Below are positions 563-737 of a stretch of DNA of 64,000 nt, in pieces (the first letter of the stretch is position 1; each line of letters starts with the position of its first letter). Under the pieces are notes generated by a model. The model had not been told where the DNA came from, did not search any database, and saw only the letters and a list, made by a program, of their open reading frames with translations. The position numbers and the translations under genes were made by a program. Source of the stretch: Candidatus Alistipes intestinigallinarum. GTDB lineage: Bacteria > Bacteroidota > Bacteroidia > Bacteroidales > Rikenellaceae. The DNA is taken from NCBI GenBank assembly GCA_019115745.1, contig DXDA01000056.1, forward strand, positions 1 to 64,000, in the 5' to 3' direction.

Positions 563-737
563 CCGTAAAAGCACCTCTTTGGCATAAGCACAAAAGAAAT
601 GGGCCTTGCATCATCAGTCTAAACTGTTGCTTAGGCGTGAGGCAAAGCCCTTTTCTCCGCTTATGCAGTAGTCGGCACACGTTCGTTCAAAATCCTTTTG
701 GGCGATGGTGTGCCGACGAATAAAGCCGCTTTTACGG
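563..737. ncRNA. Nested multi-branch inverted-repeat structure (candidate structured RNA)
   Basis: Four sets of complementary arms nest without crossing. CCGTAAAAGC (563-572) pairs with GCTTTTACGG (728-737). GCATAAGC (582-589) pairs with GCTTATGC (659-666). GGGCCTTGC (601-609) pairs with GCAAAGCCC (642-650) with one mismatch. GTCGGCACAC (671-680) pairs with GTGTGCCGAC (708-717), and a small CAAAA/TTTTG stem sits in the last loop. This folds as a closed outer stem with two branches. There is no ORF. Strand and function are unknown; I do not recognise the family. Confidence 0.45.

Follow-up and report, generated by a model that had tools for sequence, protein, structure and literature searches.

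Enterobacterial plasmids are known to express genes early, from the strand that enters the recipient. In F, ColIb-P9, and other enterobacterial conjugative plasmids, the Frpo/ssi sequences are long hairpins on the transferred strand, with promoter boxes in the duplex, that drive ssb, ardA, and psiB-type genes; the gene driven is encoded on the other strand, past the 5' side of the hairpin, and several copies per element share one orientation (PMC11541004, PMC7690428). Frpo was also found to prime replication in vitro and was likened to the single-strand origins, or sso (PMC7690428), which are folded single-stranded starts of second-strand synthesis in rolling-circle plasmids and, as Sso1, in ICEBs1 (PMC4595007). 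The establishment gene regulatory sequences (EGeRS) of pLS20 are likewise repeated before establishment and anti-restriction genes, but there the nicked strand is the non-template strand, and thus they are not single-strand promoters (PMC8708921), unlike what we propose below. Published searches for such promoters relied on the E. coli promoter consensus and on BLAST with Frpo (PMC11541004, PMC12826799); the -7 box consensus of Bacteroidota is TAnnTTTG (PMC7366714). In the literature searched, with most subscription papers outside reach, we found neither a nic map for CTnDOT nor a single-strand promoter in Bacteroides or other Bacteroidota, the latter absence being provisional.

Here we describe a strongly folded block at the end of an element of the CTnDOT type. 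The window is a stretch of 64,000 nucleotides from Candidatus Alistipes intestinigallinarum, and its positions 1-1000 are the start of the contig (G000:C38). Positions 1 to about 945 constitute the right end of a CTnDOT-type ICE beside rsmH, in agreement with the mobile-element setting suggested by an earlier note on this DNA; matches in Bacteroides, Parabacteroides, Phocaeicola, Prevotella, and their relatives have 77-97% identity and usually extend up to 945-961. Repeated CGTAACC/GGTTACG sites at 790-945 look like integrase arm sites. The rsmH start lies about 60-80 bp past the ICE end, so the element sits just upstream of the head of a division and cell-wall gene cluster (945-1023), whose transcription in the host may start from att-junction sequence. 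In relatives, a divergent operon has its start codon about 60 bp from where the block begins and encodes a 72-aa protein, a 74-aa protein, PcfK, PcfJ, DUF3873, and others; still further left lie the tra genes, on the + strand. Eight relatives (L010, L011, L042, L043, L103, L104, L111, L113) have an extra gene of ~340 bp between the leader and the 72-aa gene, which indicates that leader and hairpin behave as an upstream unit of the operon.

The + strand of positions 1-760 folds at -321 kcal/mol (z about -10), and three folded domains, which we call D1, D2, and D3, occupy positions 1-740. Sequence conservation is 73-82% in the spacers and 66% just after D3, and is higher in D1 and D3. The last domain, D3 (563-737), was the starting point of this study: the earlier note had seen there a closed outer stem with two branched helices, a description that proved right but incomplete, given that a twin domain lies just upstream. 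The RNA fold reproduces it to the base as a three-way junction with the outer stem 563-572/728-737, branch 1 at 582-666, and branch 2 at 671-716. The arms had been judged unlikely to arise by chance, and indeed the RNA fold of 543-757 has z -7.8 on the + strand and -8.3 on the - strand, none of 200 shuffles being as good; DNA folding parameters give z -8.4. Compensatory changes in homologues, without which the structure was to be abandoned, are present. Among 30 distinct relatives, 98.7% of cells pair and 10 pairs are changed on both sides, values of pairing and covariation that none of 500 shuffles reaches, and sliding the partner by 1-3 columns lowers pairing to 38-50%. Whole helix blocks are swapped together with their matching partners in L020, L044, and L109, and L020 and L109 have a different loop region. 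The mean identity of D3 among relatives is 88.5%.

Strong matches to D3 occur in 12 of 393 genomes, at CTnDOT-like ICE ends only. Parsimony over its consensus pairs, read on the + strand, gives nine changes between Watson-Crick and G-T pairs versus eight between Watson-Crick and A-C pairs, that is, no strand preference. The earlier remark that no ORF covers 563-737 is upheld insofar as no conserved ORF lies there; a coding reading was rejected, as the 'hypothetical' genes annotated over it in relatives use different frames and both strands. The TAnnTTTG box is absent from 563-737, and D3 was accordingly dismissed as a second promoter. Rfam covariance models yielded no family at gathering score, only sub-threshold chance-like matches, and lent no support to a group II intron or a GOLLD/ROOL-type RNA.

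D2 (354-526, + strand) repeats the architecture of D3, with the outer stem AGCCGG-AGCG/CGCT-CCGGCT and two branches, and is matched by the covariance model of D3, R3, with E 2e-5 in the window and 3e-7 in L158. By architecture and model score, D2 and D3 are tandem modules of one kind. Apart from these two, the R3 search for D3-like copies gave weak candidates 3' of D1 in L166, L160, and L167. The mean identity of D2, 79%, is lower than that of D1 and D3; 17 of its 58 consensus pairs show a double Watson-Crick change. Its strand events are strongly asymmetric (44 Watson-Crick to G-T versus four Watson-Crick to A-C on the + reading), and kinship with D2 suggests that D3 acts on the + strand as well. 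Like D3, D2 is devoid of a promoter box and an ORF, and the pair has no conserved terminator: the terminator-like hairpin GGGAGATT/AATCTCCC at 766-789, 3' of D3, is absent or broken in six relatives (L015, L044, L045, L103, L110, L113).

D1 (12-295, + strand) is a long imperfect hairpin of ~300 nt. Its core CAAGGTTTTT..AAAATACTACCCG..GGGCTGGAGATTTTT..CTTGACCTTG at 105-186 is the part common to relatives across the class. The 3' arm carries the -7 box TACCTTTG (206-213), nearly invariant in D1 relatives, with TTGC at 181-184 as a possible -33 element. In the D1 relatives inspected, the complement of the 5' arm opposite the box is not TAnnTTTG, hence the strand of the gene lacks that promoter in double-stranded DNA. 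Upstream of D1 no + strand promoter was found, only T-rich sequence and a block with the small hairpin H0 being conserved; the 3' part of H0, ATGCGGATT..ATCCGACATTTTTTT, occupies 1-36 on the + strand and its 5' part lies beyond the contig end. Mean identity of D1 among relatives is 92-98%, and in an alignment of 15 diverged D1 sequences 26 of 53 consensus pairs have a double Watson-Crick change. The strand events (18 versus 2 on the + reading, by the same parsimony count) agree with those of D2 and indicate that both domains act on the + strand, since tolerance of G-T pairs gives the strand, although it does not tell RNA from DNA. Class-wide, the core has an apical internal loop of constant sequence (AATAC.../...GGAGATT), likely a protein contact; the helix above it varies (TACC/GGTG, GCTC/GAGG, CGCA/GAGG).

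Two models of the core were used in samples of genomes with mechanically called ORFs: R1, which includes the box, and R2, without the box columns. R1 hairpins occur in 78 of 393 genomes of the order, with up to nine copies each, and R2 hairpins in 34 of the 395 genomes of a class-wide sample, for the most part from outside the order; the D1 hairpin family is widespread and apparently undescribed so far. Among 92 R1 hits, the ORF closest to the hairpin on its 5' side is on the opposite strand and reads away from it in 63 cases, versus 13 on the same strand (p 5e-9), and for 22 held-out R2 hits outside the order the ratio is 16 to 5. TAnnTTTG is present on the hairpin strand in the 3' arm in 68/92 R1 hits, but only 4/92 have a -7 box that would serve the gene's own strand; with the box-free model outside the order, the corresponding counts are 16/22 and 1/22. 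A -7 box that stands on the wrong strand relative to its gene is sensible only if the strand folds back, so that the 3' arm is the non-template and the 5' arm the template, and transcription proceeds into the gene. Among the hits listed, adjacent hairpin copies no more than 10 kb apart agree in strand by 15:1.

By Pfam, the genes directly behind the hairpins encode ArdA, ArdC, SSB, RadC, PcfK, a 1735-aa N6-MTase/helicase, DnaJ-like and putAbiC proteins, and also DUF6943, DUF4120, DUF4121, and DUF932 proteins. A similar gene set was reported behind Frpo in enterobacterial leading regions (PMC11541004). DUF6943 proteins recur 70-150 nt behind R1 hairpins (L173, L258, L259, L272, L273, L284, and others) and are a candidate leading-region, counter-defence family; a 158-aa DnaJ-like protein is found likewise (L174, L208, L212, L215, L218, L232, L239). 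In a 44-kb island (G292:C1:2434000-2478000; L248-L250), at least five R1 hairpins, all on one strand, lie between genes for DUF4120, DUF4121, a 1000-aa protein, and others, and this is likely a counter-defence island expressed from single-stranded DNA. The btgA/btgB element nested in the tra region of CTn214 brings an R1 hairpin of its own, which is oppositely oriented and immediately precedes a putAbiC gene (L119:38333-38453).

The polarity of transfer can be approached through the oriT. In circular CTn214 the order is mobC-mobB-mobA (-), a gap of 420 bp, ParA and tra genes (+), the PcfJ operon (-), D1-D3, att, and int, MobB being a relaxase of the MobA/VirD2-like kind. A conserved oriT core lies in the gap, consisting of an inverted repeat, 8 nt, a CTTG|C-like nic site, and a second small inverted repeat, a layout that we take to resemble MOBP oriTs. 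D1 and D2 fold on the strand bearing the nic-like site, and the oriT core and the hairpin are on the same strand in all 14 elements for which a single contig or circular record contains both, and each of these has one or more hairpins 3' of oriT. Because of this co-orientation, the folding + strand is most likely the transferred strand (T-strand), as judged from the motif. In four elements (L156, L157, L164, L168), oriT lies 190-510 nt before D1 with no gene between. No relaxase relative was detected near the oriT core and D1 homologue of these four, which are probably mobilized by CTnDOT-type ICEs.

We propose, with a probability of roughly 0.6, that positions 1-740 are a + strand folding block of the T-strand, in which D1 would be a single-strand promoter and D2 and D3 accessory single-stranded folds. 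The + strand would enter the recipient as single-stranded DNA and D1 would fold into its long hairpin, the 3' arm presenting the host -33 and -7 boxes in a duplex and the 5' arm serving as template. Host RNA polymerase would start in D1, exit at the hairpin base, and copy the T-strand into a complementary RNA, the mRNA of the divergent 72-aa/74-aa/PcfK/PcfJ operon, which would here lie to the left of the contig end on the - strand; this RNA may serve as a primer for the complementary strand, too. D2 and D3, directly 3' of D1, would act as accessory folds of the single strand, e.g., as a second-strand start or a protein-binding site, rather than as free RNA; for D3 we put the chance of such a role, probably one of these two, at about even. 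The folds and covariation, the strand of D1 and D2, membership in the D1 family, box position, gene orientation and content, and co-orientation with the nic-like oriT were computed; from them we infer the identity of the T-strand, transcription of single-stranded DNA, and any role of D2 and D3.

At the level of sequence, D1 has every feature of a Frpo/ssi promoter, built from Bacteroidota boxes: a covarying hairpin conserved on one strand, host boxes in the hairpin duplex that point out of its base, an adjacent gene templated by the hairpin strand, and ssb or anti-restriction-type genes behind it. The likeness is one of layout; TAnnTTTG replaces the -10 and -35 boxes, and the conserved core is distinct. 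A limit on the leading-region reading is that the ICE operon, unlike the genes behind Frpo/ssi, follows the tra genes, about 25 kb behind oriT, and is not the first DNA to enter. To our knowledge, the D2 and D3 modules have no counterpart in Frpo/ssi systems.

The earlier note had left open whether D3 belongs to an RNA of the mobile element or to a folded single-stranded DNA transfer signal. The layout of the D1 family and the folding of D1 and D2 on the strand of the nic-like site better support the latter, though not as the oriT itself. An origin of transfer or relaxase site within 563-737, which hairpins at a mobile-element end might suggest, is most improbable, as the nic-like oriT core adjoins mobA, at a distance of about 28 kb in CTn214, and its motif is missing from D3. 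A non-coding RNA is the main rival for D2 and D3, albeit an unlikely one: the two domains would be the body of a + strand ICE transcript, made in the donor from TACCTTTG and ending near the 766-789 hairpin. In double-stranded DNA the perfect D1 box just upstream would be a legitimate + promoter firing toward D2 and D3, from which such an RNA might be made; both domains are strongly structured, D2 with wobble tolerance on the + strand, and a terminator-like hairpin follows. However, the box lies inside D1, which would leave the conserved 5' arm unexplained, and it is common to the whole D1 family, where genes sit on the other strand; the terminator is not kept by relatives, D3 has no strand bias, and there is no Rfam family. 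RteR of CTnDOT is a small non-coding RNA of this ICE family, but it is 90 nt long and differs in function and region (PMC7366714).

Two further explanations concern the block as a whole. It might be solely a single-strand origin for second-strand synthesis, D1 being a hairpin at which RNA polymerase primes, D2 and D3 further start sites, and gene expression incidental. This is in line with the sso of ICEBs1 and with the four elements in which D1 directly follows oriT; priming by Frpo would explain that position of D1, whose role there would be priming, not expression. Yet most members of the family stand in fixed orientation directly before ardA, ssb, radC, and similar genes, and both the associated genes and the position of the box also suggest a promoter; we therefore regard an origin-only function as somewhat doubtful. 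It is improbable that the block is a long structured 5' leader belonging to a - strand transcript of the PcfK operon that starts at the right end: D3 does fold equally well on that strand, but D1 and D2 fold better on the + strand by both strand events and energy, and the block has no - strand -7 box, the sole one (CAAATATA, about 952) being at the att core and dependent on host DNA.

With the T-strand promoter thus preferred for D1, we tentatively suggest, at somewhat lower confidence than for the locus itself, that ICEs and mobilizable elements of Bacteroidota may have their own, independently built class of single-strand promoters, consisting of the core and TAnnTTTG, before counter-defence genes, and that CTnDOT-type ICEs would add D2 and D3, whose distinct task would be to convert the incoming strand or to protect it. 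If this is true, it would explain how ArdA, SSB, RadC, and PcfK/J come to be expressed when CTnDOT-type ICEs, main tetQ carriers in gut bacteria, arrive, and R1 and R2 would provide a sequence marker for counter-defence genes, such as those encoding DUF6943, DUF4120, and DUF4121, across the class.
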